Assembly (NCBI GenBank): GCA_934636465.1
Contig: CAKUAR010000002.1
Span: forward strand, 62,001 to 126,000
Direction: 5' to 3'
Origin: an uncultured Muribaculaceae bacterium
GTDB lineage: Bacteria; Bacteroidota; Bacteroidia; Bacteroidales; Muribaculaceae
DNA: 64,000 bases
The notes under the pieces were generated by a model, which had not been told where the DNA came from, did no database searches, and worked only from the letters and a program-made list of their open reading frames with translations. Shown one piece after another: positions 16,658 to 35,269 of this stretch. How positions within the stretch are numbered: the first letter of the stretch is position 1; the number at the start of each line of letters is the position of its first letter. The position numbers were made by a program, and so were the translations under genes.

Positions 16658-16679
16658 GGAATACAGGGAGATAAATCGA

Positions 16680-16760: not shown

Positions 16761-16798
16761 CCCGATGGTCACAAATTATTCACTAAAAAACAATTCAA

Positions 16799-18472: not shown

Positions 18473-18488
18473 GACATGGTTTAGAGTT

Positions 18489-18517
18489 AAGGAGGGGATT
18501 TTTCCTCTCCTTTTCTT
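18489..18517 (+). terminator. Intrinsic terminator of the mob operon
   Basis: AAGGAGGGGA (18489-18498) pairs with TCCTCTCCTT (18503-18512), one G-T pair included, across a TTTT loop and is followed by a T-rich tail. It lies just outside the invertible hsdS segment. Confidence 0.8.
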
Positions 18518-18524
18518 ATATACC

Positions 18525-18540
18525 GATAAATCAGAATTTA
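18525..18540 (+). repeat. hsdS inversion site, right-reading copy
   Basis: GATAAATCAGAATTTA, identical in inverted orientation to 19247-19262. It encodes I-N-Q-N-L at the junction between HsdS conserved region and the next specificity half. Confidence 0.85.
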
Positions 18541-19272
18541 GAAGCAATGGCAAAACAGCTATATGACTACTGGTTTGTGCAGTTTGATTTCCCGAATGAG
18601 GAAGGGAAACCGTATAAATCTAGTGGAGGTAAGATGGTTTGGAATGAGAAGTTGAAGCGAGAAATTCCCGAAGGATGGGATATATCTTTAATAAAAGATA
18701 TTGCTACCACATATTCAGGAGGTACACCCAAATCAACAAATATAGAATACTACGATAACGGAGAAATAGCTTGGATAAACAGTGGGGAACTGAATAGTCC
18801 TATAATCACTAAGACTACCAATTATATTACAAAATGTGGATTAGAAAACTCAAGTGTAAAGTTATATCCAAGCAACAGTATATTGGTCGCAATGTATGGC
18901 GCAACAGCAGGTAAAGTTAGCTTGCTTACATTCGAGGCTTGTTCTAATCAAGCCGTTTGTGGCGTTATCCCTACAATAGAAAATATGTTATACTATGTGT
19001 ACTTCCATATATCATCATTGTATAGCCATTTCATTACACTCAGTACGGGTTCTGCAAGGGATAATATTTCTCAAGATACAATCAAGAATATCTTATTGCC
19101 CATACCAACAAGAAATATTCTGAAACTATTTGATGAAAAGATTGGAAGCATTTACCAAACGATTGTAAATAACTACCAACAAATAGATTCCTTGACTAAG
19201 CAGCGAGACGAACTTCTCCCGCTTCTGATGAACTGTCAAGTGTCGGTAAATTCTGATTTATCTGACGATTAA
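18525..19272 (+). CDS. hsdS': Silent HsdS C-terminal half (invertible cassette, no own start)
   Basis: An open frame without a sensible start encodes the second half of a type I specificity subunit. It begins INQNLEAMAKQLYDYWFVQF, the conserved HsdS spacer, then a target recognition domain (GWDISLIKDIATTYSGGTPK, LVAMYGATAGKVS) and the C-terminal coiled-coil spacer (YQQIDSLTKQRDELLPLLMN). It is oriented against the hsd operon. Inverting the segment between the 16-bp repeats would fuse it in frame to the 184 residues encoded by the minus-strand hsdS gene, giving a two-TRD HsdS of about 460 residues. Confidence 0.82.
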
Positions 19273-19798
19273 GTTCTATTTTGCTGTCAATAGAACTTAA
19301 TAACTTACCGATGCGTTTTTGTTCTGATAATTCGGGAATCCACACTGTGCAATCTTTGATTTTATCAGGTGATGTGTGGCGAATTTTAGTCTGTTGGGCA
19401 GCGGCACTTAATTGCTGTTTTACGAGTGCAGAGGATATAAGATAAAAAGCAAAGTTCTTGTCTAACAAGTCCTCTTTGCAAACAATCTTTGCCACATCTT
19501 GACTTTGGATATATTTACCACTTTCGGGAATAATGGCAGTAGAACCAAGCAATCCTATTGCTTGTTCGGTCAAAGGAGTGATAATATCTCCCTCCTCCAT
19601 TAGGAATTCAGATCTAAAGTCACCAACATAATAAAGATTGTCTTTGGACTTATTCTCCTTAAAGCAGTTATTTTGATAGTCAAAGTTACCACAAGTCAGG
19701 CGAATATACTCCCCCTCAGTGGCGTAAAACTCGCCACTGAGACTTGCTCCTCTTGTAACATTGAGGATTTCTCCCAATTTATATCTTGTCAATTTCAT
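19196..19798 (-). CDS. hsdS: Type I restriction specificity subunit HsdS, currently truncated to one half
   Basis: A 200-residue protein with the first target recognition domain (MKLTRYKLGEILNVTRGASL through KIRHTSPDKIKDCTVWIP) and the central conserved helix (EQKRIGKLLSSIDSKIELNRQINQNL). After NQNL the frame runs into antisense cassette sequence and ends with PTLDSSSEAGEVRLAA, which is junk from the back of the inverted half. Full HsdS is about twice this length, so in this orientation only half the specificity subunit is made; such halves may dimerise or be inactive. Overlaps the upstream small gene by 4 nt. Confidence 0.85.
   Translation of the reverse strand: MKLTRYKLGEILNVTRGASLSGEFYATEGEYIRLTCGNFDYQNNCFKENKSKDNLYYVGDFRSEFLMEEGDIITPLTEQAIGLLGSTAIIPESGKYIQSQDVAKIVCKEDLLDKNFAFYLISSALVKQQLSAAAQQTKIRHTSPDKIKDCTVWIPELSEQKRIGKLLSSIDSKIELNRQINQNLPTLDSSSEAGEVRLAA
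19247..19262 (-). repeat. hsdS inversion site, left-reading copy
   Basis: TAAATTCTGATTTATC, the exact inverse of 18525-18540. The two copies bound an invertible segment of about 0.7 kb. Confidence 0.85.
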
Positions 19799-20123: not shown

Positions 20124-21125
20124 CTACTCATTCAACATTCCTCTAACTTGTTTATCGAAGTCAGAGTCTATCCGTTGGGTTTTATTAAAAATATCGTACT
20201 CGCTTTCCGCTTTTGCCTTAGCCTGTGATGCGGAGACACGCCCTTTATCCGGCAAAATCTGATAGCGACGAAATGTAAGGAACTCATTGACACTCCCCGA
20301 AAACTGCGACATATTGAACGTATTCTCACGCTCGATAAGGTCTTCTATATAATCAAAGAAACCTGTTACAGCACGTTCCAACTGGCGGATTTCCTTTTCC
20401 TGCAAATAGTTCTTGGCTATTGATACATCAGACTTCAATATACGTCCATCGGGAGCATTCTTCCATGTGGTCAAACCCATGTGTTCTTTGCGATGGTCTG
20501 CCTTTGTGTAGATAATTTCGGCAGCTGTCTGTCCTGTAATGGCATAATGAAAACGGTTCTGTATCATAGCATAGAAATCACGTGTTGTGGGCGAGTTCTT
20601 GTCATAGTCAACACTACATTCTGCATATATATCAGTAATTTGCTGCCAAATACGGCGTTCACTGGCACGGATAGAGCGTACTCTTTCCAGTAATTCACGA
20701 AAATAGTCTTTCCCGAAGACCGTTGTTCCTTGCTTCAAACGATCATCGTCAAGTACAAATCCTTTTTTGATGTACTCATTAAGAATTTTTGTTGCCCATT
20801 GGCGGAACTTGGTTGCTTTAGGGGAAGATACACGATAGCCAACAGCAATAATCATATCAAGATTATAGAAATCGACCAACTCTTCAACCTCGCCTCTTAT
20901 GCCTCTATTTACGACGGTTGCAATTTTTGCAACTGTCGTGTCTTGCTGAAGTTCATCTTCCTTAAAAATATTGGATATGTGGCGACTAATACCTGATTTA
21001 TCAATACCAAACAGCTGCGCCATAGCCTTTTGGGTACACCAAATCGTTTCGTCTTTGATAACGACTTGCACCTTCCCTTGTTCATCAGGCAGGCTATATA
21101 ATAAAAACTGTATCTCGTTACTCAT
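20124..21125 (-). CDS. RhuM family protein in the restriction-modification operon
   Basis: A 333-residue protein of the RhuM family. The N-terminal KilA-N/BRO-like part has VIKDETIWCTQKAMAQLFGIDKSGISRHI, a helix-turn-helix-like region, followed by VDFYNLDMIIAVGYRVSSPKATKFRQWA, and the C-terminal half has FDYIEDLIERENTF. RhuM proteins are frequent between hsdM and hsdS in Bacteroidales type I systems; their role is unknown, though DNA binding is likely. It overlaps hsdM by 8 nt. Confidence 0.82.
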   Translation of the reverse strand: MSNEIQFLLYSLPDEQGKVQVVIKDETIWCTQKAMAQLFGIDKSGISRHISNIFKEDELQQDTTVAKIATVVNRGIRGEVEELVDFYNLDMIIAVGYRVSSPKATKFRQWATKILNEYIKKGFVLDDDRLKQGTTVFGKDYFRELLERVRSIRASERRIWQQITDIYAECSVDYDKNSPTTRDFYAMIQNRFHYAITGQTAAEIIYTKADHRKEHMGLTTWKNAPDGRILKSDVSIAKNYLQEKEIRQLERAVTGFFDYIEDLIERENTFNMSQFSGSVNEFLTFRRYQILPDKGRVSASQAKAKAESEYDIFNKTQRIDSDFDKQVRGMLNE

Positions 21126-22779
21126 TGTTCCCTACATTTGTGTTGAACTGCAAAGCATCCAACTGTTTCATTATTTCCTCTTCCAAACGATGGCTCTCTG
21201 CAAATTGCTCGGAAAGGATTTGCTTGTAGTCCGCCATTCGGAAATTAAACTCTTCTTCCGTTATATCTACATAATCAATCTTGATGTCGAAATATTGTCC
21301 GGCAGAAAGAGAATATCCTTTTTCCTTTATCTCATCGTAAGAAACAGCTACGGAAAAATCCTCCACTGCCTCCTTGCGCTGGAATGTGCCGACAATCTTT
21401 TCTATCTCGTCATCGTTCAACCGCACCTTTTTCAGTCCGTTTGCATCCTTGTATTCCTCGCCCAATTTGCTGGCATCAATCAAGATTACTTTGTCAGTGG
21501 TTGCGGACTTGTCGAAGAACAAGACACTGACATTCGTACCCGTATTGGCGAATACATTACTTGGCATGGAGACACAACCATACACTATTTTTTCATCTAC
21601 AATTTTATGAAGGATTTTGTTTTCAATACCACTTTTAGCCGTTATAAAGCCTGTCGGAATTACAATAGCTCCCTTTCCTGTCTTTTTCAAAGAATTGATG
21701 ACATGTTGAATAAAGCAGGTATAAATTGCCATTGATTCTTTCTTCTTGGCTGGTACATTGGGAACTCCTGCCCAAAAACGTGCCGGCATGGCTGCAATCT
21801 TCTCTCTGGTATCGGAAAAATCCATCTTGAAAGGAGGATTGCTCACCACAAAATCAAATTGGCGTAACTGTTGTCCGTCATCGCTTTTGTGATAAGGGCT
21901 TACAAGCGTATCGCCCTGAATGGCATTGTCGAGTGAAGACACAAGTCCATTGAGCAACAAATTCAGTTTCAACATCTTGTTGCTTCGTTGGGATATATCT
22001 TGCGAGAAGATGGTGCAACGGTCTTCGCCTATCTGATGGCTGAGTGCCATAAGCAATGTACCCGTTCCTGCCGATGGATCGTAACACTCCATGCTATGTA
22101 GGTCGGCATTGTCCCCAACCAGTAAACGTGCCATAATGGTAGCAATAGCATGAGGGGTATAATATTCCGCATATTTGCCACCTCCAGCGGTATTATAGTC
22201 TTTAATTAAATATTCAAAGATACTGGAGAAGAAATCGTAGTTCTGTGCAAACGCCTCTTCAAAAGAGAAATTCACAAGTTTGTCCACCAACGCACGGGCA
22301 AATGGCGCACGTTGTGCCGTATCGGTTACAAAAGGCGTAAGAGGTTCAAACAGGGGTATTTTCGTGTTAGCCGTTGTTTGTGTGGAGAAAATATCTGCAT
22401 TCTTTTCCGCTATATCCGTCATAGTGGAATCGAAGATAGTGTCAAAGTCCCCTTTTCCTTGCTGATTCCAAAGATAGGCTATCAGGTGATAAGGTTCAAG
22501 CATTGGGACATCGGGTGATATGGCACTCTGAATCAACATACGCTCATCATCAGAAAGATTCTCGTATGCCGTTTCCCATTTTTCATCACCATTCAGTTTC
22601 TTGGCAATGTCACTTTTCGCATTCTTTAGTTCATAGCCGAATTTGTCATTCAGGAATTTATAGAGAAATACCTGAGTGATAATTTTATATTCGTTACCAT
22701 CGTTACTCATGCCGTATGACTGGCAAGTGGCTTTCAGACCGTCGATGAGCTTTAATGTTTTTTCTTTAATGTCAGACAT
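21118..22779 (-). CDS. hsdM: Type I restriction-modification methyltransferase subunit HsdM
   Basis: A 553-residue N6-adenine DNA methyltransferase. The N-terminal HsdM_N helical domain (YKIITQVFLYKFLNDKFGYEL) is followed by the SAM-binding motif I DPSAGTGTLL (Asp234 to Gly240) and the catalytic NPPF at 314-317. It methylates the site chosen by HsdS, protecting self DNA, and forms the M2S1 core that HsdR joins. Starts 5 nt behind hsdR's stop, in the order hsdR-hsdM-rhuM-small-hsdS. Length is within the family range. Confidence 0.93.
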   Translation of the reverse strand: MSDIKEKTLKLIDGLKATCQSYGMSNDGNEYKIITQVFLYKFLNDKFGYELKNAKSDIAKKLNGDEKWETAYENLSDDERMLIQSAISPDVPMLEPYHLIAYLWNQQGKGDFDTIFDSTMTDIAEKNADIFSTQTTANTKIPLFEPLTPFVTDTAQRAPFARALVDKLVNFSFEEAFAQNYDFFSSIFEYLIKDYNTAGGGKYAEYYTPHAIATIMARLLVGDNADLHSMECYDPSAGTGTLLMALSHQIGEDRCTIFSQDISQRSNKMLKLNLLLNGLVSSLDNAIQGDTLVSPYHKSDDGQQLRQFDFVVSNPPFKMDFSDTREKIAAMPARFWAGVPNVPAKKKESMAIYTCFIQHVINSLKKTGKGAIVIPTGFITAKSGIENKILHKIVDEKIVYGCVSMPSNVFANTGTNVSVLFFDKSATTDKVILIDASKLGEEYKDANGLKKVRLNDDEIEKIVGTFQRKEAVEDFSVAVSYDEIKEKGYSLSAGQYFDIKIDYVDITEEEFNFRMADYKQILSEQFAESHRLEEEIMKQLDALQFNTNVGNNE

Positions 22780-22784
22780 AAATT

Positions 22785-25700
22785 TTATGCAATGCCATAA
22801 GTGGCGTTATATTGGTTGATATATTGTTGTGAAATACGTGTTTGGATAAACTTGTAGTCATCCATTTCCGGCTTTATCTGTGGAAAATGATACAAGCACC
22901 CATTGATAAGTGCCATCACCGTACGATTAAAATAAGCGTCCTTTTTTAGAATGTCGTTACGGTCATATACTTTAGCATCCACATCCTCTTTTATGATATT
23001 GAGAATGGCTGCAATCTCTTCATCAAGGAAAGAGAACATGGGCTTTTGTCCTTTCTCCTTTCTCCTTTCTCCTTTCTCCTTTCTCCTTTCTCCTTTCTCC
23101 TTTCTCTGCTTATTTACTTCACGTATGCGCTTGTGCACACGGGCAAATTTTTCATCACCCTTATACTTTTTCACTAACGCATTATTTCGTTTTTGCAGGT
23201 CTTGCAGACGAACTATGATTTCATCCAATGCTTGGGTTTCTTCATTAAACTTTGCTATAGAGTCAATCACAAATCCATGTTCTTTGAATCGTTCCATAAA
23301 AGCGTCACGCAACGAAATGAATTCAGGATCGTCTTGGTCGAAGTTCTGCGTGAATGAAGTAATGGTACGCTGCCATTTTTCTTTCAGTTCTATTCCTCCC
23401 GATATAAGGTGCATTTCTTCTTGCCCAATTTTAGAGAAAGTGAACTCAATATCCATCATGGCTTCGTTGATAAGCGTTTTTGTCTCATCACCTATGCTAA
23501 AAGCCTCCTTTTGATTGATGATACCAATGCGCCTTTGTACTTCAGATAACAGTTGCGGCAACTTGGTAATTTCAAGTTTTGCGAATTGCTCTTTCATATC
23601 ATCATCGCCAAAGGTACGCACAATATTCGCCATATTCTTCGCTGCCTCTAATGCTTGTTTTAGGTCAAGAAGTACAGCTTTGTCTTCCTCTGTGGAGATT
23701 TCGGACGAGAACTCTTCCGCATTGTCATAAGAATAATCAAAAAGTGTCTGACGCACCTGTTTCATTTGCTTCAAAATCTCTTCCTTATCCTCTATGACTT
23801 GGGTAAACGTGTCTGTGGCAGCGGATTCTCCGGTTTCATCCACGTCATTAAAACGGTTCAACTCTTGCAAATATGCCTCGTTTGTTTCCTGAAAATTGCG
23901 TTTGATGTCGGCAAAATCGATGACAAAGCCGTAACGCATTCCCGGATAAGGACGATTCACACGGGTAATGGCTTGGAGCAAATTATGATCTTTCAATTTA
24001 CGACCAAAATATAGACGCTTCAAGCGAGGGGCGTCAAAACCAGTCAGAAGCATATTGAAGACAATGAGAATATCCACCGTCATATTCTTCTTGAAGTCCT
24101 TGACTATCTGCTTTCTCGTTTCTTTGTCATCCGTATCGTGAAGAATGATTCCCGCTTTCAATGGTCTGTACTTTGATTTGTAATCCACTTCAGGTTCACC
24201 TACAACATATGAACCATCAGAAAGTTTTACCTTGATAGGCTTCGGTTGATATTTTTGCCATTCTTCTTGGAACACATCATAAAGTCGCCGTGCCTGCTCG
24301 CTGGTCTCGCAGATAACCATGCCGCCCAAAGTATCATCACCCTGTATCTTACGAAACTCTTTTAAGTCATTCATGATATAGCGAGCCAACTCATTTACAT
24401 AACTCGGATGCTCTATGATTTCCGACTTGCGGATGTCTTTCTTTTGCACAAGGGTTTCCAGTTTATCGTACACATCAGACAAACGCTTTTTATAGGAGGT
24501 TTCTATATCTTCACGTATGATTTTCAGCGTGTAGCCATCCGCAATGGATTTATCGTAATAATAGGTATGCAAATAGTTTCCGAACACCTTGCAACTGGCA
24601 CGTTCCTCCTTTAACAGTGGTGTACCTGTAAGTGCGATTTTAACCGCATCGGTATCGGCATCAAAGAGATTGGCAAGAAAGCAGCCGCCGGGTTTATACC
24701 CTCGGTGTGCCTCGTCAAGAATGAAGATACGTTGAAGATTGGTTGCATAATCGCTGATGCGTACTTTTTCTTTATCCTCGGCAAAGCGTTGAATGTTTAC
24801 AACCGTGATTTCTGCCTGTCCGCTTACACCTTGTTGTGCCTGATTACTGCGGAATTGTTCCATCAGTTCGGTTCTTGTATTGGCGGTAGATACAACCAAT
24901 CCACGAGCTTCAAACTCTTGTGTGGCTTGTTCCAAAAGGTCAAGGCGGTCTACTATGAAATAGAATTTGGCAACCTTATTCTGTTTGGAGTAGAAATCGT
25001 TGAGAATATAGGTCAGATAGTATGACAAGGCGGTTTTACCACTTCCTTGTGTATGCCAGACTACGCCAGATTTCACCCCTTCTGCCAGTTTTTGGCGAAT
25101 AGCTAACGATGCAAACAATTGTTGGTAACGCATGATATGCTTTTGGTCGGTAGATTCTATTTTTCCATCCACCTCACGCTCCATACGAACATAGGCAATA
25201 CCATATCTAATGATATACAACAAACGGTCAGGCGAACACATGGATGTTAGGATTCTGTTTGTAGGGGTGTTGAAACCAAGATTTGTCTGATACTCAGGAC
25301 TTGTATGAATGACTTGGCAATTATAATCAGACAATATCTGTTTTTCCACCGTCTTGTCAATCTCCTTATACGGATAGTCACGATGGAACGGTGCTATTTT
25401 CTGACCGTTTAAATTTTCTTCACGGAAGCAATTGAATGGTGCGTATGAACGTGCCCCAGTACAATAGAAAGCCCCTTGTATGGGTACGATACCGCCCAAC
25501 GCATCATATTCCATATTATTGCTGAATATCATCAACTGCGTAATGTTGATGAAGTGGCGAAACTTTTTATTTGGGAAGCGTTCTTTATTCATTCGTGCGC
25601 TCTCCGCCAACATACCACTATGATTGTTGGGTTTCTTCACTTCTACAAAACAAAGTGGCAATCCGTTTACGAACAAAGTAATGTCAGGACGGAATTCGTC

Positions 25701-26057
25701 CTGTCCGTTCTTACAGGTAAATTCGGCTGTGAAATGAAACGTGTTATTCCCAATGTTATCAAAGTCTATCAGCTTTACAGGCGAAACAGCTTTGAGACGG
25801 TTATAAAAGCCTCGACCGAGGTCATCATCGTTCAGTTCCTTACGAATATCTTTCAAAACTTGAAGAAACTCTCCCTCATGTCCGGGATTCAGATTCTTAA
25901 ACTGCCGTTCAAATACCTGCAAAAGAATATTCGTGTCACTGTCATAGACCGTGCCATTCTTATCTTCGCTCAACTTGCCGAAGTAAGTATATCCTATTCG
26001 AGTGAGGTGAACCATTGCAGGCATCTGCACCCGTGTAGCTTCCGAAAACTGTTTCAT
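22785..26057 (-). CDS. hsdR: Type I restriction endonuclease subunit HsdR, with internal heptanucleotide repeat
   Basis: A 1090-residue translocase-nuclease. The N-terminal nuclease domain has the PD-(D/E)xK pattern (Asp125 in RPDITLF, Glu139 and Lys141 in FVEVKKPN). The superfamily 2 motor has Walker A TQGSGKTA (Lys341), DEAH at 448-451, and later helicase motifs LTGFDAPRLKRLYF and QAITRVNRPYPG. Near residues 985-1003 the heptamer repeat encodes an ERRKEKG-type stretch, separating the motor from the C-terminal helical domain that contacts HsdM. Gain or loss of one repeat would shift the frame and remove roughly the last 90 residues. Confidence 0.94.
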   Translation of the reverse strand: MKQFSEATRVQMPAMVHLTRIGYTYFGKLSEDKNGTVYDSDTNILLQVFERQFKNLNPGHEGEFLQVLKDIRKELNDDDLGRGFYNRLKAVSPVKLIDFDNIGNNTFHFTAEFTCKNGQDEFRPDITLFVNGLPLCFVEVKKPNNHSGMLAESARMNKERFPNKKFRHFINITQLMIFSNNMEYDALGGIVPIQGAFYCTGARSYAPFNCFREENLNGQKIAPFHRDYPYKEIDKTVEKQILSDYNCQVIHTSPEYQTNLGFNTPTNRILTSMCSPDRLLYIIRYGIAYVRMEREVDGKIESTDQKHIMRYQQLFASLAIRQKLAEGVKSGVVWHTQGSGKTALSYYLTYILNDFYSKQNKVAKFYFIVDRLDLLEQATQEFEARGLVVSTANTRTELMEQFRSNQAQQGVSGQAEITVVNIQRFAEDKEKVRISDYATNLQRIFILDEAHRGYKPGGCFLANLFDADTDAVKIALTGTPLLKEERASCKVFGNYLHTYYYDKSIADGYTLKIIREDIETSYKKRLSDVYDKLETLVQKKDIRKSEIIEHPSYVNELARYIMNDLKEFRKIQGDDTLGGMVICETSEQARRLYDVFQEEWQKYQPKPIKVKLSDGSYVVGEPEVDYKSKYRPLKAGIILHDTDDKETRKQIVKDFKKNMTVDILIVFNMLLTGFDAPRLKRLYFGRKLKDHNLLQAITRVNRPYPGMRYGFVIDFADIKRNFQETNEAYLQELNRFNDVDETGESAATDTFTQVIEDKEEILKQMKQVRQTLFDYSYDNAEEFSSEISTEEDKAVLLDLKQALEAAKNMANIVRTFGDDDMKEQFAKLEITKLPQLLSEVQRRIGIINQKEAFSIGDETKTLINEAMMDIEFTFSKIGQEEMHLISGGIELKEKWQRTITSFTQNFDQDDPEFISLRDAFMERFKEHGFVIDSIAKFNEETQALDEIIVRLQDLQKRNNALVKKYKGDEKFARVHKRIREVNKQRKEKGERRKEKGERRKEKGQKPMFSFLDEEIAAILNIIKEDVDAKVYDRNDILKKDAYFNRTVMALINGCLYHFPQIKPEMDDYKFIQTRISQQYINQYNATYGIA
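23049..23104 (-). repeat. Eight-copy 7-bp tandem repeat inside hsdR
   Basis: Eight uninterrupted copies of TCCTTTC on the plus strand (GAAAGGA on the coding strand), 56 bp in all. Because 7 is not a multiple of 3, slipped-strand changes alter the reading frame. The present count is in frame with the full hsdR. Confidence 0.92.
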
Positions 26058-26386: not shown

Positions 26387-26572
26387 ATGCATATATTTGA
26401 CGAATACTTAAATGATGAAAACGTAGATAAACGTGAACGTGCCAAACTTTGGCGAACATCTATTGGTTTGCAGGCTGTTGATAATCTCACGGTTTCAGGC
26501 TTCCTTATTGAAATGGCACGTAAACATATAGAGGGAGAAATATCAATGGATGAAGTCAATAAAATGATATAA
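26387..26572 (+). CDS. VbhA-like antitoxin, orphan
   Basis: A 61-residue protein. The C-terminal half, SIGLQAVDNLTVSGFLIEMARKHIEG split around EISMDEVNKMI, resembles the antitoxin_VbhA helical fold that blocks Fic-domain AMP-transferases (typical pattern ... y..GeIs.dE). Usually a Fic toxin gene follows, but none is found in the next 350 nt on either strand. It may be a remnant, act on a toxin elsewhere, or have another role. Family call is by pattern only. Confidence 0.5.
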   Translation: MHIFDEYLNDENVDKRERAKLWRTSIGLQAVDNLTVSGFLIEMARKHIEGEISMDEVNKMI

Positions 26573-26735: not shown

Positions 26736-26868
26736 TTTATACTTCAAGTGGGATGAATTTGTGCATTCATTGAGTTGACAGACTATCTGTCATCCTGAGC
26801 GCAGTCGAAGGATCTTCTCCATTGCTCTTGCGTCGAGATGCACAAACAGATACCGAGAAAAGTATAAA
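26736..26868. repeat. 133-bp palindromic intergenic unit with TGTCATCCTGAGCG-type core
   Basis: The ends are 31-nt imperfect inverted arms: TTTATACTT...TTTGTGCAT (26736-26744, 26758-26766) and ATGCACAAA...AAGTATAAA (26838-26846, 26860-26868), each with a 13-nt middle. Inside lies a hairpin TGACAGA-CTA-TCTGTCA (26776-26792) running into TGTCATCCTGAGCGCAGTCG and AAGGATCT (to 26815), a motif dispersed in many bacterial genomes. It could be a small non-autonomous mobile repeat, or a structured RNA upstream of the RT operon. Apart from it, 26573-26925 holds only a short GGTGTA/TACACC hairpin (26685-26705) and no gene. Confidence 0.7.
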
Positions 26869-26925: not shown

Positions 26926-27966
26926 ATGAGAATACCGGATGAAATAATTAGACAACTTCACGAAATTAACTGTGAAGATGCTGCCAAACGCTTTGGACTT
27001 GATGTCAAAAAACATATGGCTCATTGTTTTAAGCATAATGACCGTATTGCAAGTCTTGGCTTTAGAAATAATCATTGGAAATGTTTTTCATGCGATATAG
27101 GTGGAGACGCAATAACTTTTATTCAAGAAAAATTTTCAGTATCTTTCGTTGAGGCTTGTATAATTCTGGCTAATGAATATGGTGTTCACATCCCTTCTGT
27201 TGAAAGACGGTCTGCAAAATGGAAAGATTCTGTTATAAATCTACCACAAAGGGAATCAACTAATGACGTTTCACCTCTTTTCGATCGAGAGGTTGCTGAA
27301 TTTATAATGGAACACACAACCCTGACAAAGGCCGGAATTAATTTTTTACGAAGTCAGAGAAACATTAAAAGTGATGTAATTGAGTTCTCCAAGATTCATT
27401 CTATTGATGGCGTGAATAGTTTAAAAGATATAATACAAGTTCGATTCGGAATAGATCGATTAAAAACAGCGAAGATTTTAACATCAAATGGAAAATATCT
27501 AACTATTGATGCACCCTCATTAATCATTCCTTACTATGATGAGAGTAATAATCTAATAGGTTTGCAGACTCGATATTTGGGAAAAGATAATCCAGATTTT
27601 CACATACCAAGATTTAAAAGAATATGTGGCTCATCAATTAGATTATATAACCTCCCTATTTTGAAATCAATGCAACATGGTGCAAGACTTTTTATTACTG
27701 AGGGCATAACTGACTGTTTAGCCATGTTATCAGTAGGTTATAATAGTGTAGCACTTCCTAGTGCGACTTCGTTACCAACTGAAGACCTTACCCAAATAAA
27801 AAGCTATAATCTTTATATGATAGCTGACCAAGATAAGGCAGGAAATGATGCTTTCATAAAGTTATATCGACTTATGCTCAGATTTGGGTGCGAAGTAAAA
27901 AGAATTAAACTTCCAAGCGGTGTTAAAGATTTTTGCGATTATTATCTAAAGACTACAAAGGATTAA
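26926..27966 (+). CDS. DnaG-like primase: CHC2 zinc finger plus TOPRIM domain
   Basis: A 346-residue protein. A CHC2 zinc finger near the N-terminus uses Cys34, His37, Cys53 and Cys56 (CFKH...CFSC followed by GGDAITFIQ, as in DnaG). The middle (LIIPYYDESNNLIGLQTRYLG, then SSIRLYNLPIL) resembles the primase RNA-polymerase basic domain, and the TOPRIM domain has Glu259 in ITEGITD and Asp301/Asp303 in IADQDKAG, all needed for metal-dependent catalysis. The C-terminal helicase-binding domain of housekeeping DnaG is absent. It is the first gene of a three-gene operon with the RT, 6 nt before the next start. It could make RNA primers for the RT or sense phage replication; both are inference. Confidence 0.88.
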   Translation: MRIPDEIIRQLHEINCEDAAKRFGLDVKKHMAHCFKHNDRIASLGFRNNHWKCFSCDIGGDAITFIQEKFSVSFVEACIILANEYGVHIPSVERRSAKWKDSVINLPQRESTNDVSPLFDREVAEFIMEHTTLTKAGINFLRSQRNIKSDVIEFSKIHSIDGVNSLKDIIQVRFGIDRLKTAKILTSNGKYLTIDAPSLIIPYYDESNNLIGLQTRYLGKDNPDFHIPRFKRICGSSIRLYNLPILKSMQHGARLFITEGITDCLAMLSVGYNSVALPSATSLPTEDLTQIKSYNLYMIADQDKAGNDAFIKLYRLMLRFGCEVKRIKLPSGVKDFCDYYLKTTKD

Positions 27967-27971
27967 ACAAT

Positions 27972-28649
27972 ATGGAAAACATATACCCCAGCAATCTCGA
28001 ACAAGTTTTATTTAAGGACTTGAATAGAGAGGTGTTATACAAATTGTTCATCAATAGTAATGCCCAATCAATGGATGTAGATGAGATAGGTATGATTGAT
28101 GAAGGAGTACAGTCATCGCCTAAAGAGAGAGAGGTAAGACATAGAGTAGAGAAGCTATTATTCTTGAATTTATTGATGGATTATGATTTGGAAAATCAGA
28201 TAGAGCGAAGGAAAAACGCCAAGTATGATTATATGAACGGCCTTCTTCTATACATTGCTTCGAATCATCATTTCAAATATGGGTTTGGATATTTTAAAGA
28301 CAACATACAATCATTTGATAATATGCTTGGGCAATGGTGTAAATTCCTGAACGCAGTTATATCAGACATCAAGGTTCTTCCTATTATCAAACTGGACCAG
28401 CAGATCGCTGTTGAATTTGGAGAAATTCTTAATATTACGTTATCAAAGGATGTTATTTACAATGTGAATATTAACATGGATAACTTTGATAGGTTATTTA
28501 GAGAAATGCCCCCAAAATACGACTTTTGTATAAGAGTTGATAAGGGTACATTTGAGTGTGGCAAAAGCGATGGGAGCGGACTACAGAGCGACTTATATAA
28601 GGCATTCTCAGAGCTTAATCGATTAATACAGACATTATCGTCAAAATAA
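27972..28649 (+). CDS. Unrecognised protein between primase and RT
   Basis: A 225-residue protein starting at the ATG at 27972 (MENIYPSNLEQVLFKDLNRE), 6 nt after the primase stop and 20 nt before the RT start, so clearly in the operon. No signal peptide or membrane segment. It has a helical first half (RVEKLLFLNLLMDYDLENQ) and a C-terminal part with IKLDQQIAVEFGEILNITLS and MPPKYDFCIRV. I recognise no family; it may be a small subunit of the RT or primase complex. Confidence 0.75.
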   Translation: MENIYPSNLEQVLFKDLNREVLYKLFINSNAQSMDVDEIGMIDEGVQSSPKEREVRHRVEKLLFLNLLMDYDLENQIERRKNAKYDYMNGLLLYIASNHHFKYGFGYFKDNIQSFDNMLGQWCKFLNAVISDIKVLPIIKLDQQIAVEFGEILNITLSKDVIYNVNINMDNFDRLFREMPPKYDFCIRVDKGTFECGKSDGSGLQSDLYKAFSELNRLIQTLSSK

Positions 28650-28668
28650 AATTAGTACACATAGAATT

Positions 28669-31600
28669 ATGAGCACCAAATTAAGAGAACAAATACTATC
28701 AGAGGAGAATATCTATAAGGCAATTTTTGCTATGGAGTCATATATATCAGAGCGTGATTTGCTTAGCCCCGAAGATCTGGATACATTTCTTCGGCTAAGG
28801 GATAAATATGACTTTAATGGCATTGTTTCTGATACTATTGAAAAATGTAAGAAAACTCTAACCCAATTACTTGACGATGAAAATGAATTGCTAGAAGTCA
28901 ATGTTTTCTTTAAAATCAAGAAACTGAGTTCCGAAGGAAATACAGTTGTAGAGTATCGCCCATTGCACACGGCTAGTCTCGTCAATCAGATTTGTATGGC
29001 ATCAATGCTTATGCCTTTAATGTTTGACGATTCTAATGGGAAACGGAATCTATCGGAATTATCACGTATGCTACCTCATAATTTCTATGGTAATATTCCA
29101 AGTTGTAATATAGGTAGTATCTTTATGAATTGGACAGAGAAATACCGCCAATATTCTCAAATAGTAACGACTCGCTGTCGGGAATATTCCAAGACACGCG
29201 AATATGATAAAGAAATAAGTTTTGACCTTAAAGACTTTTTCCCATCTATCAATCCTTTGAAGATTCTGAATTTTATTTGGAATGCTGTTTCGAGTAAATA
29301 TAAAAACGATACTGATAAAAAGTGTCTGAAGACCATTATATCTAAACTTCTATATTTTAAAATTTCCGAGGAGAACCTCCGGGAATGGAAAGATGTATAT
29401 TATAAGGAACAACATAATAATGTAAAATCGGTTAACGGTTTCTATCCTGTCCGGGGAATAGCGCAAGGACTACCACAATCATACTTTTTTGGTAATTTAT
29501 GCATGATAGAAGTCGCTGATTGTATGAGTCATGTCGATAAATTAATGGATTCAGACTCGTATTTCTATGTGGATGATTCAGTCGTATTTGCTAAAAACAT
29601 TAATTCGGATTTATTTGGAGAATTAATCCAAAGACTCAATAATTCGGTTACTGAAGCCAAAAAAGATTGGGAGGAATATCCAGTTATAGGTCAGGATTTA
29701 CTGTCACAAGCAATGGATATAAATTATAACATACAGTTTCATCCTAATGGAAAGAGTACAATTTGTGATATAAATGACTCTTTTAAAGGTATGGATGGTC
29801 TGTTTCTAGTTCAACGACCTGTGTCAATGGGCGGATGGATAAAGGGAAATATTGATGAAGTTGACGATAACGTTGCCTTGAAAAAGCTAACGGCTTTACA
29901 GGATGTCGTTAATCTTGAGATAAATAAACTCCGTTCGAAAAGAACTAAACTTGGAGATAATTCTTATGGTGAAGAACGACTTAAGTGGCTCAGACGATAC
30001 AAACGATATTTTCTATTTAGACAAAGAAAACTGCAAATTCTTTTGAATGGGAAATATGATAAGGAGCTAAAAGCGAAGTTCTACGAAACATTCAAAATTG
30101 ACGATGTTACATCTCAGGACAATACTTCAAAAGAACTAATTAATGCTTTATTTGAGGTCTTTGAGGAAGAAATATTCAAATCTGAATTTGAGTTGATTCT
30201 AAGAGATATGCCTTTCAGTGAAAAAAAAGGTTTCTGCGCCAAAATTCAACAATATGATATCGCTCTGTCAAAATATAATTGCAGCACTCATAGGTCTGAT
30301 AAATACTTGTATTACCATAGAATCAGTTCGATGTTATGCAGTGCAGATGTTGCCACTGTGGACGAATATGAATCCCTTTCGCGTGTTGTGCGAAGTGTAC
30401 GTCCTTTCCGTAACTCTGAAAGATTTGTTGAGGCTATAAAGAATACATCTTATAATGCCAATGATGTGTGGGAATTGTTCCCATTCCTAAATTCAATCAC
30501 AGGAGTGTCTGATTCCGGAAATCCATGTCTTAATTCAAAAACAGGATTTCCTTCTTGGTGCGAGTTTGTTTTCAGAAATTCAGAGAACTTCAGACGTAAA
30601 ATTTTGAATTGCTGTTTCTCATTCGCTTGCAACATTCAATCTGGAGATAATCTATCAATTTTGAGGTCTGACATTAAGCCAATAAAATACTATGAGTTAA
30701 GAATTATTTCAATGCTCAGGAATTATCGTTTGAAAATTTGCGATTTCTTTGAGTTTGTGAGATCTCTTGATCCAAAAGATTTGAACGAGAGGATGGATAT
30801 AGATCTCGGAATTCTTGAAGGGCTCGGTATATACCGGCAAAAGATTCAAGATCCTGAAAAGATTGACCGATTAATCCAAACACATAGACTTGTTAAAAGC
30901 CTTTGGCATAATGGTTCCAAATTCTTGAATGCTTATACATTACACAATCACGAACACGCTATCAATCTAATAAAGAATGTAGTTAGGCTCGTGAATAATG
31001 TGGATTTTTTGAATTTGAAGGCTAATGATTTCTTCTTGCTATTTAATGCGTGTTATCTACATGATATAAGCATGGTTATACATCCGAGTGTATCCTTGTT
31101 TAACGATTCTAATGTCAAGTCTGAACAATTAATCAGTAAGTGGCTTAATCGTATGTTGACACTTAACAAAAAAGTTGACAATGCCTATAAATCAAACAAA
31201 TTCGCAATGGACGAGATTCATCGGATTAGGAAAGAGATGGGATTGTCTTTGATTGAGGTATTTCAAGATATTTTTGACTTCTTTGAGAACCGTGTGCGTG
31301 CACCTCACGCATATGAAAGTGCTATGTTTATCCGTCATTGGCAAGAAGATATGTTGTCTTTCCTATCAGAGCTTGAAGCTGAAACAATAGCTACAATATC
31401 CGATAGTCATGGATGGAATACAACAGATGTATATGAAATGAAATCTTCAGCGAAGGAAGAGTTAATCAGCTTGAAGTACATGATGATTCTCATACGTTTG
31501 GCAGACTTGCTCGACTTGGCAAATGATAGAATAGATTATTTCTTACTGAAGCAAAATCGTTCGCAGATGAGTCCGGTTTCACTATACCATTGGATTTCCC

Positions 31601-32094
31601 ATCTGATAACTGAGCGATATGAATTGGATGTTGATTACGAAATCATTAATGAAAAGGAACTAACAGATCAACCTATCCAAGAACTGATACATCTTGATAT
31701 TTTCTTAAATGCAGAGATTCTTGCAAATATAGAAGTGCATAAAGAGTGTTGCAGAGGATTTCAAGCAGAACTTACCAAATGTAGAAAAAATAAGATTCCA
31801 AAGAACGATACAGAATATAAATGCCTAGAATTTAAGGTAGGGAAAGATGATGAACCCTGCTGTTCAAATATGTGCAAACGAAATGGAGATTCTCATAGTT
31901 GCCCATTCATTTGTCTATGGATGAGCGACAAGCATTGGTGGTTATTCTCTGAGCTTGGCAAACTCAAACATTATCTGAATTCCGTCAATTCAAAACTGAT
32001 AAAATCAGATATTTCAGTTAGATTTTTCTATAATAATACCAACAAACTTGACTCTGAGTTTTTTGACGATGTTAAGAATTATCTGAGTAGATAA
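28669..32094 (+). CDS. Reverse transcriptase fused to HD phosphohydrolase-like domain and Cys-rich tail
   Basis: A 1141-residue protein. The RT palm has motif A FDLKDFFPSI (Asp186), motif B GIAQGLPQS (263-271) and motif C YVDD (300-303), so it looks catalytically intact; the thumb and an unassigned region follow to about 740. The next domain is HD-like: HNHEH (759-763), LHD (798-799), His880 in APHAYES, His914 in DSHGW, and ADLLDLANDR (945-954), resembling HD-CE-type domains. The C-terminus has a Cys cluster (1064, 1065, 1069, 1078, 1082). No maturase/endonuclease domain, integron or retron hallmark is seen, so it falls with the defence-associated unknown-group/Abi RTs; I cannot assign a subgroup. 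The HD part may degrade nucleotides or nucleic acid once activated (inference). Confidence 0.9.
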   Translation: MSTKLREQILSEENIYKAIFAMESYISERDLLSPEDLDTFLRLRDKYDFNGIVSDTIEKCKKTLTQLLDDENELLEVNVFFKIKKLSSEGNTVVEYRPLHTASLVNQICMASMLMPLMFDDSNGKRNLSELSRMLPHNFYGNIPSCNIGSIFMNWTEKYRQYSQIVTTRCREYSKTREYDKEISFDLKDFFPSINPLKILNFIWNAVSSKYKNDTDKKCLKTIISKLLYFKISEENLREWKDVYYKEQHNNVKSVNGFYPVRGIAQGLPQSYFFGNLCMIEVADCMSHVDKLMDSDSYFYVDDSVVFAKNINSDLFGELIQRLNNSVTEAKKDWEEYPVIGQDLLSQAMDINYNIQFHPNGKSTICDINDSFKGMDGLFLVQRPVSMGGWIKGNIDEVDDNVALKKLTALQDVVNLEINKLRSKRTKLGDNSYGEERLKWLRRYKRYFLFRQRKLQILLNGKYDKELKAKFYETFKIDDVTSQDNTSKELINALFEVFEEEIFKSEFELILRDMPFSEKKGFCAKIQQYDIALSKYNCSTHRSDKYLYYHRISSMLCSADVATVDEYESLSRVVRSVRPFRNSERFVEAIKNTSYNANDVWELFPFLNSITGVSDSGNPCLNSKTGFPSWCEFVFRNSENFRRKILNCCFSFACNIQSGDNLSILRSDIKPIKYYELRIISMLRNYRLKICDFFEFVRSLDPKDLNERMDIDLGILEGLGIYRQKIQDPEKIDRLIQTHRLVKSLWHNGSKFLNAYTLHNHEHAINLIKNVVRLVNNVDFLNLKANDFFLLFNACYLHDISMVIHPSVSLFNDSNVKSEQLISKWLNRMLTLNKKVDNAYKSNKFAMDEIHRIRKEMGLSLIEVFQDIFDFFENRVRAPHAYESAMFIRHWQEDMLSFLSELEAETIATISDSHGWNTTDVYEMKSSAKEELISLKYMMILIRLADLLDLANDRIDYFLLKQNRSQMSPVSLYHWISHLITERYELDVDYEIINEKELTDQPIQELIHLDIFLNAEILANIEVHKECCRGFQAELTKCRKNKIPKNDTEYKCLEFKVGKDDEPCCSNMCKRNGDSHSCPFICLWMSDKHWWLFSELGKLKHYLNSVNSKLIKSDISVRFFYNNTNKLDSEFFDDVKNYLSR

Positions 32095-32181
32095 GGTTAT
32101 CGAAGTTTATTGCAAATCTTCGTGTTTGAAGCAGAAGCTGTTTCGTAATCAAGGAGCTTAGTCAATAAGTTATGAAATCAG

Positions 32182-32218
32182 GGACTGAACCTATATCATT
32201 CATGTATAGATTCAGTCC
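32182..32218. terminator. Bidirectional terminator-like hairpin behind the RT operon
   Basis: GGACTGAA (32182-32189) pairs with TTCAGTCC (32211-32218), with an inner CTATA/TATAG pair after single unpaired bases. It lies between the RT gene and the convergent small gene, and marks the end of the three-gene operon. Confidence 0.7.
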
Positions 32219-32226
32219 TCATTAAA

Positions 32227-32505
32227 CTACTCCATTGATTCCCGAATAATCCGCAAAGTTTCTTTCTTATACTCCTTGCGATCATATTCAAATCCTCTAC
32301 ACATCCAACAGCTACATGGAGTACCTGTCGTTTTGTATACTTGTGCCCATTTGTCTTTTGCCAACTCAAACCAATGAGGGTGTTCATAATAGCTTCCATC
32401 CTCACGAATAATACAATGCCCATAAGCGGCATAAAGAACCATGCGAGCCTTAAACACACGAGCCATTTGTTGGCGTCTCCAAAATTTGTTTCTTTTGTCC
32501 ATCAT
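32227..32505 (-). CDS. Small Cys-motif protein of mobile elements
   Basis: A 92-residue basic protein ending with PCSCWMCRGFEYDRKEYKKE. A short family of proteins with CSCxMCGNPR-like ends is common in bacterial genomes and mobile regions; this one looks like a member, with the C-x-C-x2-C cluster probably binding metal. No function is known to me. It is the last of three minus-strand genes. Confidence 0.6.
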   Translation of the reverse strand: MMDKRNKFWRRQQMARVFKARMVLYAAYGHCIIREDGSYYEHPHWFELAKDKWAQVYKTTGTPCSCWMCRGFEYDRKEYKKETLRIIRESME

Positions 32506-32599
32506 CTCTTTCTATTAAAGTTAGGATGAACAATGATGCTATTTTGGTTAGATTTAATGTATCCATAATAATTGTCTTATAAAATATGTTCAGTCAATA

Positions 32600-33217
32600 C
32601 TATTCTTCTTCCTCCTCAAACCCTTCTGACGCATTAGCAATCAGTGCTTTTCCTATCTCCATCTGTAAATATTTAGGAAGACGAAGTAACTTTGTAATCA
32701 GCTGGCTATAAGTAAACTCAACTTTGGTATCAAATATAGGTTCTTCTTCAATGCTCGTATCAATTTTCTCAACGATTCCAGCCCTCTCTATAAAATCGGA
32801 AAAGTCTGGCTCGTCAGGCCAATTTTCTATCGTGCCGTCATAGTTGATTCTTAAGCGGATATAATCTCCACAATCATCCACCTCTGGTATTAAGCCATTG
32901 GGAACATAATCGGCAATTCTGCATATCACCTTTTTGTCTTTATCAAGTAAGAAATAGGTTCCGCTATCACATACCTTGGCTTGAAAATACAAACTTCCAT
33001 ACTCTTGTTTCCAATTCAGGAGCTTATGAGTTTTCAAGTTAATCATAGCTGACCACATCCCCTTAGAGACCAAAGGATACTTGTTTTCATAAAGTTCACC
33101 CAACCAATTATCGGTATAACTACACAGTTCCTCATTGAATGGGAGGTATATCATAAGGTAATGAGCAACCTCATTCAAATCTTGCTCTCTGATTCCAACT
33201 AATATCTGCTTTGCCAT
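32600..33217 (-). CDS. Hypothetical protein paired with the ATPase
   Basis: A 205-residue protein, start 17 nt after the ATPase stop on the same strand, so probably co-transcribed. No signal peptide or membrane segment. It has a VEVD-type acidic middle and ends in a run of glutamates (EGFEEEEE). No family recognised. Confidence 0.6.
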   Translation of the reverse strand: MAKQILVGIREQDLNEVAHYLMIYLPFNEELCSYTDNWLGELYENKYPLVSKGMWSAMINLKTHKLLNWKQEYGSLYFQAKVCDSGTYFLLDKDKKVICRIADYVPNGLIPEVDDCGDYIRLRINYDGTIENWPDEPDFSDFIERAGIVEKIDTSIEEEPIFDTKVEFTYSQLITKLLRLPKYLQMEIGKALIANASEGFEEEEE

Positions 33218-33234
33218 AATGTCTTTATTTATAA

Positions 33235-34626
33235 TTAAATGGTAGTCAATAAACTCAAATCAACATCAGGAATGATAACATCCGCAAGCTTATCTTCAAC
33301 AAGGAATCCCATATAAAGCGGAATGGTGAGTATATCTCCCTCACGTCCTACATTATATTGACCCAACTTGATTGCATTTTTGACATGATACACATCCTTG
33401 TTCTTCAGAACCGTAGTCATGCTTTTTGCCTTTCCTGACTTTGCCTTGACTTCAAGGATAATGCATTCCCCTTTGAATCTTACCAAAAAGTCCAATTCAA
33501 GACCGCTATCCTTATGAAAGTAGTATAGCTTTTGCCCAGACTTGCATAAGAAATCAGCCATCAGATTCTCAAAGATAGCTCCCTTATATCCAAGAAGATT
33601 ACCCTTCAAAATATCCGCCTGCGTGCCATAGTCGAGCATAGCCATAAGAATACCTATATCGGTAGTATATACCTTGAAACACTCTTTGATGGAATTACCC
33701 TCTAACGGCAGTTCCGTAATCTGCGTGTTATAGCATCTACGAACTATCCCGGCATCCTCCAACCATTGGATACTACCGATATATTGCGAAGAGCGTCCGC
33801 CCTTCTTGACGATGGAATACTGAAATTTCTTGTTCTCTTTGGCTAATTGTTTCGGAATAGATTCAAAACATTCACGGATGTTAGGTTTGTCTGCATCATC
33901 CGCATATTTAACCATATCCTCTTCGTATTCAGCAATAAGATTGCGCTGCGCCTTATATATAAGTTCGATATTCTTGGTTTCAAGGAAACAGTTCACCACT
34001 TCCGGCAGACCTCCAACAATGACATACCTGTACAACAGCTCCATCATTGCCTTGTGAATTCCATCTGGAACAGGCTGTTCATTTTCAAAGCATGATTTAA
34101 CCGCATCAATAACCGCCTCGCCGATTCCATTTGCCCATAAGAACTCTTCAAAATCTAACGGATACATATCTATCACGGTTTCATATCCGACAGGAACAGA
34201 ATCTTGTCCCTCTTCTTCGTTTTTCTTCCTGCTTTTGCCGTAGCCTTTCACACCTAAAAGAGAACCTGTAGCAATAATATCGAAACGCCCGTCTATATGG
34301 AATGACTTCAAGGCTGTCCTTGCCTCCTTGCATTCCTGAATCTCATCAAGAATAATACAGGTTTTCCCCTCAATGAAACGACTACCTTGAATCAAAGCAG
34401 AGAGGTTGAGAATAATGGTATCGACATCTATATTACCCGTAAAGGCAGACTTCTTATCCGGCTCAAGTATGAAGTTCATATAGACCACATTTTCATAATT
34501 TTCTCTTGCAAACTTCTGGACAATGTATGTCTTTCCGCATTGGCGGATACCTTTTATCACAAGAGGCTTTTTGTCCTCAGACTCTTTCCACTTAGCTAAA
34601 TATGTTTCTATTTTCCTTTTAAGCAT
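33235..34626 (-). CDS. AAA ATPase with DUF4143-like C-terminal domain
   Basis: A 463-residue protein from the ATG at 34624-34626 (MLKRKIETYLAKWKESEDKK). The N-terminal AAA_14 domain has Walker A KGIRQCGKTYIVQKF and Walker B CIILDEIQE with sensor TGSLLG; the C-terminal DUF4143 part has LLGYKGAIFENLMADFL and a PD-(D/E)xK-like GLELDFLVRFKGECIILEVKAK (Asp, Glu, Lys). Members of this family are widespread in Bacteroidales and archaea; the usual role is unknown, with a nuclease-like fold at the end. Close to the right end of the island. Confidence 0.88.
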   Translation of the reverse strand: MLKRKIETYLAKWKESEDKKPLVIKGIRQCGKTYIVQKFARENYENVVYMNFILEPDKKSAFTGNIDVDTIILNLSALIQGSRFIEGKTCIILDEIQECKEARTALKSFHIDGRFDIIATGSLLGVKGYGKSRKKNEEEGQDSVPVGYETVIDMYPLDFEEFLWANGIGEAVIDAVKSCFENEQPVPDGIHKAMMELLYRYVIVGGLPEVVNCFLETKNIELIYKAQRNLIAEYEEDMVKYADDADKPNIRECFESIPKQLAKENKKFQYSIVKKGGRSSQYIGSIQWLEDAGIVRRCYNTQITELPLEGNSIKECFKVYTTDIGILMAMLDYGTQADILKGNLLGYKGAIFENLMADFLCKSGQKLYYFHKDSGLELDFLVRFKGECIILEVKAKSGKAKSMTTVLKNKDVYHVKNAIKLGQYNVGREGDILTIPLYMGFLVEDKLADVIIPDVDLSLLTTI

Positions 34627-35269
34627 AGCGCAATCATATTCTTCCAATGGCAAAGTTACACTTTTTCCAGCGAACAACCATCAAGCTCATACATTTTTTC
34701 AAGCGAATAAATCACATATATCCACATTTATTCAAGCCAATCACATATTTTCACACAAAAAACTATCGCAACCCACAGAAATCCCAAGAAAACCACTACC
34801 TTTGTATTCAACAAGCGTTCTGTAACATACCAGCGGAAATGCCCTATCATTAAGTACCTTGTATCTGATATAGGACATTCCACAAAAGGGCTGAAAAGAG
34901 GCGGTACAACACGTATATGCAAAGCGATGAAACACAACGGTTTGCATTTGTCCCTACATTCTGTGTATTTGTCAAAATAGAGGTTGTACCGATTAAAATG
35001 AATAGTCACAGATAATCAGTAATATAAATATGCTGCGTGGGAAAGTGATCTTTCTGAATTATAATATATTGCTGTTCTTTTCTGCATACGTTGCTCGTCT
35101 TTAATTACTCAATGGCAAAGGAAATATTGGCTTCAATAGTGGAATCTTTCACCAAAATAGAACTGATTGAATAACGACGAATTACGTTTGAGTTTTTTTT
35201 TGGAGTGGGCGGAATGTTGTACTTTTACGAAACTAAACGATTGACAGAAAACGTAATTTGACTAAACAA
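34627..35269. other. Intergenic stretch containing the probable right end of the island
   Basis: About 640 nt without a supported gene. It holds a 9-bp inverted repeat CGGTACAAC (34911-34919)/GTTGTACCG (34983-34991), whose TTGTACCG also occurs in direct orientation at 8813-8820, and CTGCGTGGGAAAGT at 35033-35046, partly matching the mnmE 3' end. Base composition shifts from island-like to host-like across this stretch. Confidence 0.45.

Follow-up and report, generated by a model that had tools for sequence, protein, structure and literature searches.

A UG24-type reverse transcriptase-HD protein with a constant partner protein and a lineage-confined DnaG-like primase in a Muribaculaceae bacterium

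Introduction

Among reverse transcriptases (RTs) of the UG and Abi kinds, Class 1 systems typically contain a helical repeat domain and synthesize DNA without a template, Class 2 uses a non-coding RNA (ncRNA), and Class 3 is frequently found with predicted effectors such as phosphohydrolases (accessible portion of PMC13174585). The Lactococcus abortive-infection RT AbiA consists of an RT, a helical domain and a HEPN domain; Abi RTs synthesize DNA without a template, and the polymerase activity of AbiA needs its HEPN domain, which is enzymatically inactive (accessible portion of PMC11077055). Several defence-associated reverse transcriptase (DRT) systems use an adjacent ncRNA, and DRT1-9 are tabulated in the accessible portion of PMC13213688, in which UG24 is not named. 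The accessible portions of PMC12632851 and PMC8934634 add nothing on UG24 function, and no paper on this function was found in a literature search that covered mostly papers outside subscription. Many UG RTs have no known mechanism, and UG24 is apparently among them. Here, we analyzed a three-gene unit encoding a DnaG-like primase, a small middle protein and a UG24 RT fused to an HD-type domain, which lies in a stretch of 64,000 nucleotides (nt) from an uncultured Muribaculaceae bacterium (assembly GCA_934636465.1, contig CAKUAR010000002.1, positions 62,001 to 126,000 of the forward strand; hereafter, the window).

The combination of such a primase with an RT was unfamiliar to the author of an earlier note on this DNA; however, the pairing is already catalogued, since PADLOC-DB holds both RT_UG24 and RTasDnaG-like as DRT components. 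The PADLOC names reportedly go back to a 2022 survey of UG and Abi RTs. What is new here, as far as our searches show, is not the pairing itself but the comparative pattern over 46 related loci. By sequence comparison, we found a predicted two-protein core, made of the middle protein and the RT-helical-HD protein, from Firmicutes to Bacteroidota, and a predicted primase that is confined to one lineage and co-diverges with this core.

Results

The three proteins of the unit

An open reading frame (ORF) check confirmed that the three genes proposed in the earlier note are real and that all of them lie on the + strand. The features of the unit are as follows.

26926..27966, + strand, DnaG-like primase (346 aa; PADLOC RTasDnaG-like; CHC2 and TOPRIM)
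about 27025-27093, + strand, CHC2 zinc finger of the primase (codons C34-C56)
about 27691-27942, + strand, TOPRIM domain of the primase
27972..28649, + strand, middle protein (225 aa from ATG; partner of the UG24 RT)
28669..32094, + strand, UG24 RT-helical-HD-CE protein (1141 aa; Cys-bearing C-terminal tail)
29224 (D186 codon) and 29566-29577 (YVDD codons), + strand, RT motifs in the RT-HD gene
about 29857-30843, + strand, helical part in the RT-HD gene (model residues 397-725)
30931-31653, + strand, HD-CE domain in the RT-HD gene
32181..32219, + strand, hairpin with a terminator-like stem and no T run, between the RT gene and the convergent next gene

The genes are as tightly spaced as had been noted, although the gaps are 5 nt (primase to middle gene) and 19 nt (middle gene to RT gene) rather than 6 and 20 nt. 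The mechanical ORF of the middle gene begins earlier, at TTG, and this 238-aa form was used for the scans.

Its profile match places the RT-HD protein among the UG24 reverse transcriptases: the PADLOC model RT_UG24 matched it at 1210.2 bits over profile positions 2-1035 of 1036, and the next model, RT_UG6, reached 22.5 bits. The Pfam family RVT_1 matched at E 1.9e-6 and 28.2 bits, just below the cut-off of 29.6. D186 and Y300-V301-D302-D303 were invariant in 47 RT sequences, and the same held for H759, H763, H798, D799, H880, H914 and D946 of the HD-CE domain (E 1.3e-25), a fused, putative hydrolase that might correspond to the phosphohydrolase-type effectors often associated with Class 3 UG RTs. 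The structural model of the protein (pLDDT 85.8, pTM 0.83) was composed of an RT, the helical part at residues 397-725, the HD part and a beta-rich tail that contains the invariant cysteines C1028, C1078 and C1082. A Foldseek search with this model ranked AbiA first (E 3.6e-7, TM-score on the target 0.34), and the VIA-align rows shown for it were RTs and viral RNA polymerases. The earlier assignment to a non-retron, UG/Abi (DRT) kind thus agrees with these results, and a retron identity was rejected (NCBIfam retron_St85_RT, 18.6 bits against a cut-off of 235). We also rejected DRT7/UG10, since the primase is a separate DnaG/TOPRIM gene and no PrimPol match was obtained at E ≤ 1 in Pfam, NCBIfam or PADLOC.

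The primase matched the CHC2 zinc finger (E 1.3e-11), Toprim_2 (4.6e-11) and the dnaG model (1.7e-32) in library scans, and PADLOC RTasDnaG-like covered its residues 1-344 (E 2.9e-97). It missed the curated cut-off of the dnaG equivalog (112.8 vs 283.6 bits), and an ordinary DnaG identity was accordingly rejected. Because the chain ends at residue 346, there is no room for a DnaG-type helicase-binding C-terminal domain. Inspection by eye showed the zinc ligands C34/H37/C53/C56, E259 of TOPRIM and D301/D303 to be kept in 20 aligned relatives, apart from the first two zinc ligands of L005, which are lost at a contig edge. The catalytic sites of the primase, RT and HD parts are therefore intact, as had been proposed. 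The middle protein was rightly called unrecognized, with no convincing match in four libraries: NCBIfam, PHROGs and PADLOC gave none at E ≤ 1, and the two Pfam matches were insignificant (E 0.12 and 0.14). Its structural model (pLDDT 82.6) had no clear relative among solved structures.

Distribution of the core and the primase

Protein searches yielded 525 RT relatives, the best 120 of which were listed, and 32 middle-protein relatives. We assembled 46 related loci, 44 from GTDB genome contigs by an alignment-based scan and two from IMG/VR. IMG/VR scans with Firmicutes RTs and with the middle-protein alignment gave no further loci, and phage and plasmid records had no match to the unit. Such loci are rare, being found in 2 of 393 genomes of an order sample and 8 of 399 of a family sample, including 1 and 4 known carriers, respectively.

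A small ORF (110-294 aa) was present directly before the RT in 42 of the 46 loci, in Bacteroidota and Firmicutes alike; the remaining four have a split middle gene (L003), a contig end (L014 and L033) or an RT in pieces (L044). From this position, the middle protein is, as a predicted product, a constant partner of UG24 RTs. The primase was detected by phmmer in 21 of the 46 loci, in one of them broken (L045). Homologues of the RT are therefore found together with the two genes that the earlier note had joined to it.

We constructed an RT tree of 45 rows (quick IQ-TREE, midpoint root; L016 and L044 were left out as their RTs are broken), in which long-branch warnings were given for L019, L020, L021, L024, L026, L027, L031, L036 and L039. 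All primase-bearing loci fell into one Bacteroidota-type clade of 24 rows (SH-aLRT 91), comprising 21 rows with the primase (window included), two cut by contig ends and one without it (L013). Outside this clade, the primase was absent from all 14 Firmicutes rows with enough upstream DNA, out of 17, and from the four Bacteroidota rows (L019, L020, L021 and L031). The primase state changes twice on the tree, and the simplest reading, with the root placed only at the midpoint and not inferred, is one gain and one loss, the primase having presumably been added in one Bacteroidota-type lineage. The clade also contains L018, whose bin carries the label Akkermansia; this reflects either a transfer or a misbinned contig.

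Distances among the three proteins were compared by Mantel tests over the window and 15 loci (L003, L005, L016, L040, L045 and L046 were left out as near-copies, broken or short), and the correlations were 0.948 for primase-middle, 0.883 for primase-RT and 0.909 for middle-RT, with 0 of 9999 permutations as high as observed. Since gene order and joint divergence are kept in distant relatives, the association of the three predicted genes goes beyond chance neighbourhood.

The IMG/VR locus L045 is nearly identical to window positions 27155-35044 (97.7% identity). The primase of this locus is incomplete at its 5' end and frameshifted, and the RT ORF is open. In the alignment, the last ~40 residues of its middle ORF do not agree with those of the window, and a frameshift is the apparent cause. 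This copy (L045:4447-5980), in which the primase is truncated and the middle gene is changed at its 3' end, is apparently decaying, and it is not a clean primase-less control because the middle ORF is also altered and only the RT ORF is fully open.

The middle protein and its N-terminal arm

The middle protein diverges strongly (median identity 20% within the primase lineage), and a central stretch around Y103 is common to its relatives, with Y103 conserved in at least 90% of 58 rows. In profile comparisons, the window middle group matched the L004-L018 group (98.2%, E 2.7e-14) and the short forms of the deep Bacteroidota (95.1%, 3.1e-8), and these short forms matched the Firmicutes forms (97.7%, 2e-12). 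The PADLOC model RTas1299 in turn matched both Firmicutes middle forms scanned (2.2e-16 and 4.8e-64); it had no match to the L022 middle protein, and no PADLOC model matched the window middle gene at E ≤ 1. This chain of intermediates links the window middle protein to RTas1299 as a putative remote relative.

Before the conserved Tyr, the 16 primase-bearing rows have 89-120 residues and the 17 primase-free rows 39-76; in the primase lineage, the protein is longer by ~55 residues at its N-terminus. The tally drew on 16 primase-bearing and 18 primase-free rows; L030 (58 residues) was set aside as its upstream DNA is too short, L013 was counted apart, database proteins (P numbers) were excluded, and L041 and others are absent from the alignment. 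L013, primase-free but within the primase clade, keeps 107 residues. The pattern suggests that the N-terminal extension may serve the primase.

Genes in the primase position of other loci

In five primase-free Firmicutes loci (L028, L035, L038, L041 and L043), RTas1808 stands before the middle gene. PADLOC was run on L035 and L038 only, and the other assignments were made by alignment; four of the proteins are at 40-67% identity to L038. The overlap of RTas1808 with the middle gene is 4 nt in L035, L038 and L043 and 25 nt in L028, and the start is unsure in L041. By its conserved pattern R...SFxSxSK...ExExLLPP, RTas1808 looks like an ADP-ribosyltransferase, with a weak Pfam match (0.012) in one of the five and no match in the PDB. 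In L029, a CAP12/Pycsar-type TIR gene (9056-9535, E 1.9e-26) overlaps the middle ORF. In L023 and L034, the middle gene is preceded at 36-39 nt by RES-like genes, whose matches (E 0.017 and 0.045) miss the curated cut-off, and the DNA around them is conserved between the two loci (79.6% over 1347 nt). A Schlafen AlbA_2 gene is 316 nt away in L024. In other primase-free loci, the upstream genes are different or distant (glycosyltransferase, integrase, ParE, AAA, S-layer), or there are none. Filling of the primase position by other predicted enzymes is thus a tendency, not a rule. On the other side of the unit, an AbiGi gene overlaps the end of the RT gene in the Muribaculaceae locus L022 (13752-14471), where the DNA is conserved in L042, and it is a possible fourth gene of the system there.

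Flanking DNA

We compared the flanks of eight close pairs within the primase lineage. Conserved DNA started at most 9 nt before the primase ATG in six of the eight (77-93% identity) and ended at most 2 nt past the RT stop in seven; because conservation stops at the gene ends in most informative pairs, no flanking ncRNA was seen. The exceptions were L004/L009, which match over 101 nt upstream, and L022/L042, in which about 114 nt match upstream and the downstream match extends through AbiGi. L006/L010 have in common a separate upstream block (83%), the end of which lies about 145 nt ahead of the ATG. The sub-lineage of the window offers no informative pair and no close relative with an intact 5' flank. 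Of the seven Firmicutes loci in the comparison, L023/L034 were the only ones to match upstream, in a stretch that runs through neighbouring genes.

None of the four Rfam matches obtained at E ≤ 5 reached the cut-off. Predicted folding of the 352 nt in front of the primase is better than that of 100 shuffled versions (z -2.52). A palindrome, TGTCATCCTGAGCGCAGTCGAAGGATC, lies upstream of the primase at 26788-26814 and occurs as a single copy in the window at ≤3 mismatches. We take this palindrome, which lies within the folded stretch, to be REP-like.

Genomic setting

The unit was said to lie in a mobile island with restriction genes, and genes of both kinds were found nearby. The setting described here covers the genes around the unit in the window. 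Mobility genes surround the unit: a tyrosine recombinase is encoded at 9924-11027, and the interval 14127-18038 holds a relaxase along with DUF3987 and DUF6371. Two hsdS pieces and a RhuM gene are also present. The hsdS pieces are convergent (18412-19272, +, and 19199-19798, -), contain Methylase_S in both cases and recall invertible specificity genes. Read by eye, ORFs 21118-22779 and 22785-26057 are putative hsdM and hsdR, respectively. Within the latter (- strand), positions 23045-23106 contain 8.9 copies of the 7-nt unit TTTCTCC (98% matches). As 7 is not a multiple of 3, a change in copy number would shift the frame, and this putative hsdR is a candidate phase-variable restriction gene.

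Between the putative hsdR and the primase lies a small ORF of 61 aa (26387-26569) with no Pfam family, whose GEIS-type ending we take to be reminiscent of Fic antitoxins. Downstream of the unit, the terminator-like hairpin of the earlier note exists, within a 138-nt stretch of strong predicted folding (z -4.05), but it was not listed by the terminator scan and has no T run. A 171-nt stretch next to the RT gene (32246-32416) recurs at L045:16101-16271 with 81% identity, perhaps as a duplicated small island gene.

Discussion

We give an even chance to the reading that the locus is a UG24-type DRT system with a template-free RT, an HD output and a primase that primes for the RT. Template-free synthesis is suggested by the AbiA-like shape and by the absence of a visible ncRNA, and the unit probably has an abortive anti-phage function, as its family and setting indicate. 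Upon phage infection, the RT would make DNA without an RNA template, as Abi RTs do, with the middle protein as its cofactor or regulator, and the HD domain would be an output that hydrolyses nucleotides or nucleic acid and halts either the replication of the phage or the cell itself. In the primase lineage, the primase may dock on the extended N-terminus of the middle protein and would lay short primers with which the RT starts or double-strands its product.

Several observations weigh against this reading. None of the 18 loci with enough upstream sequence that lie outside the primase clade (14 Firmicutes and 4 Bacteroidota) has the primase, so that priming is not a general need of the RT; the earlier proposal of a pathway from primase-made primers through RT-made cDNA to the HD domain is thus possible, but not with the primase as a general requirement. 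The distance correlations, made without an unrelated control gene, speak for joint inheritance only. The arm lengths are upper bounds because the middle ORF starts are first-start-codon calls, and the primase and the long arm change on the same branch, as one event, and therefore provide no independent support for docking. Direct profile comparisons of the window middle group with the Firmicutes group (2.2%) and the L022 group (3.7%) were not significant, and homology to these groups accordingly rests on intermediates and position. Finally, in a survey of 94 neighbour genes (the nearest, hand-picked from 195 candidates; best 25 of 237 matching PADLOC families; L005, L009, L012, L014, L016, L042 and L044 left out), integrase domains occurred up to 7 times, Schlafen AlbA_2 3 times and type I restriction twice, counts that have no background rate.

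Another explanation, possible if somewhat unlikely, is that the primase occupies an interchangeable effector slot. The middle and RT-HD proteins would then be a sensing and activating core and the upstream gene a swappable output, with TIR, ADP-ribosyltransferase-like or RES-like products in certain Firmicutes and the DnaG-like primase in Bacteroidota, the primase acting on phage or host replication (mis-priming, nucleoside triphosphate use or competition for single-stranded DNA) instead of priming for the RT. RTas1808 in five primase-free loci, overlapping the middle gene in four, fits such a slot, as do the overlapping TIR ORF in L029, the RES-like genes of L023 and L034, below the cut-off as they are, and L013, which lacks the primase inside the primase clade and has open middle and RT ORFs. 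However, as upstream genes are different, distant or missing in other primase-free loci, the slot is not filled in every case; the ADP-ribosyltransferase assignment comes from motif reading (Pfam 0.012 in one of five, no PDB match); and the primase has retained its catalytic residues and diverges in step with the RT itself. Given the swaps in Firmicutes, we infer that priming for the RT is nevertheless not far ahead of this explanation.

Copying of a hidden template RNA by the RT-HD protein, in the manner of Class 2 DRTs (DRT2, DRT9 and DRT10) or retrons, appears quite improbable. Several DRTs do use an adjacent ncRNA (accessible portion of PMC13213688), the 352 nt before the primase fold better than shuffled sequences (z -2.52), upstream conservation exists in L004/L009 (101 nt), L022/L042 (about 114 nt) and the L006/L010 block, and the window has no close relative with an intact 5' flank for comparison; yet conservation stops at the gene ends on the 5' side in 6 of 8 pairs and on the 3' side in 7 of 8, the genes of the unit overlap or nearly touch, no Rfam match reached the cut-off, the folded stretch includes the presumably REP-like palindrome, and the Firmicutes upstream match is limited to L023/L034 and continues through neighbouring genes. 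That the primase belongs to the ordinary replication genes of the mobile island and stands before the RT by accident is extremely improbable and already contradicted: although the island has replication and mobility genes of its own (DUF3987, relaxase), the primase ORF adjoins the middle gene in those relatives that have a primase (with a 5-nt gap in the window), the genes diverge jointly (r 0.88-0.95), and a dedicated PADLOC model exists for it.

A broader scenario, which we regard as rather doubtful, would be the recruitment of a replication-type primase into immunity as an exchangeable module. The UG24 core would activate lineage-specific upstream enzymes (primase, RTas1808 or TIR), the arm of the partner would be an adaptor choosing the module, and the primase and RT would together write an RNA-started DNA alarm sensed by the HD domain or the host. 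If the primase truly replaces a TIR or ADP-ribosyltransferase-like gene, either primases can be immune effectors or RT products go to different enzymes. The comparison of loci leads to claims that can be tested, namely that the middle gene should be essential, that the primase should be dispensable for the RT itself and that the N-terminal arm of the partner should hold the primase. L013, with an open core and no primase inside the primase clade, is a natural comparison.

Comparison with known systems

In AbiA, as in the RT-HD protein, the RT is followed by a helical domain and then by a C-terminal defence-type domain. However, this last domain is HEPN in AbiA and HD in the window protein, AbiA has about 590 residues against 1141, and no primase or partner gene is described for it in the accessible portion of PMC11077055. 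DRT7/UG10 also combines an RT with a primase-type polymerase (accessible portions of PMC13213688 and PMC13174585), but there a PrimPol is fused to the RT, whereas the window has a separate DnaG/TOPRIM gene that is absent in many relatives. With bacterial DnaG, the primase shares the CHC2 zinc finger, TOPRIM and the catalytic core residues, and it differs in its score (112.8 vs 283.6 bits) and in having no helicase-binding domain.

RT_UG29 is likewise a model for UG RTs, and its first ~480 positions correspond to DnaG-like proteins, but it is a single model of 2280 positions. A UG29 architecture was rejected for the unit. In a family search, this model gave matches in 388 of 395 and 370 of 398 genomes as well as in 10 of 14 controls; the listed matches all lie in the first ~500 positions and are apparently chromosomal dnaG genes, with not one true UG29 member among them. 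Used alone, positions about 3-500 of this model would label dnaG genes as DRT.

Among the closest systems is the UG24/DRT candidate of PADLOC-DB: the RT matches RT_UG24 from end to end, the primase matches RTasDnaG-like, and relatives found here carry RTas1299 and RTas1808, although the window middle gene escapes the RTas1299 model. The PADLOC-DB models do not give which of these genes co-occur in which lineage, and this was worked out in the present analysis.

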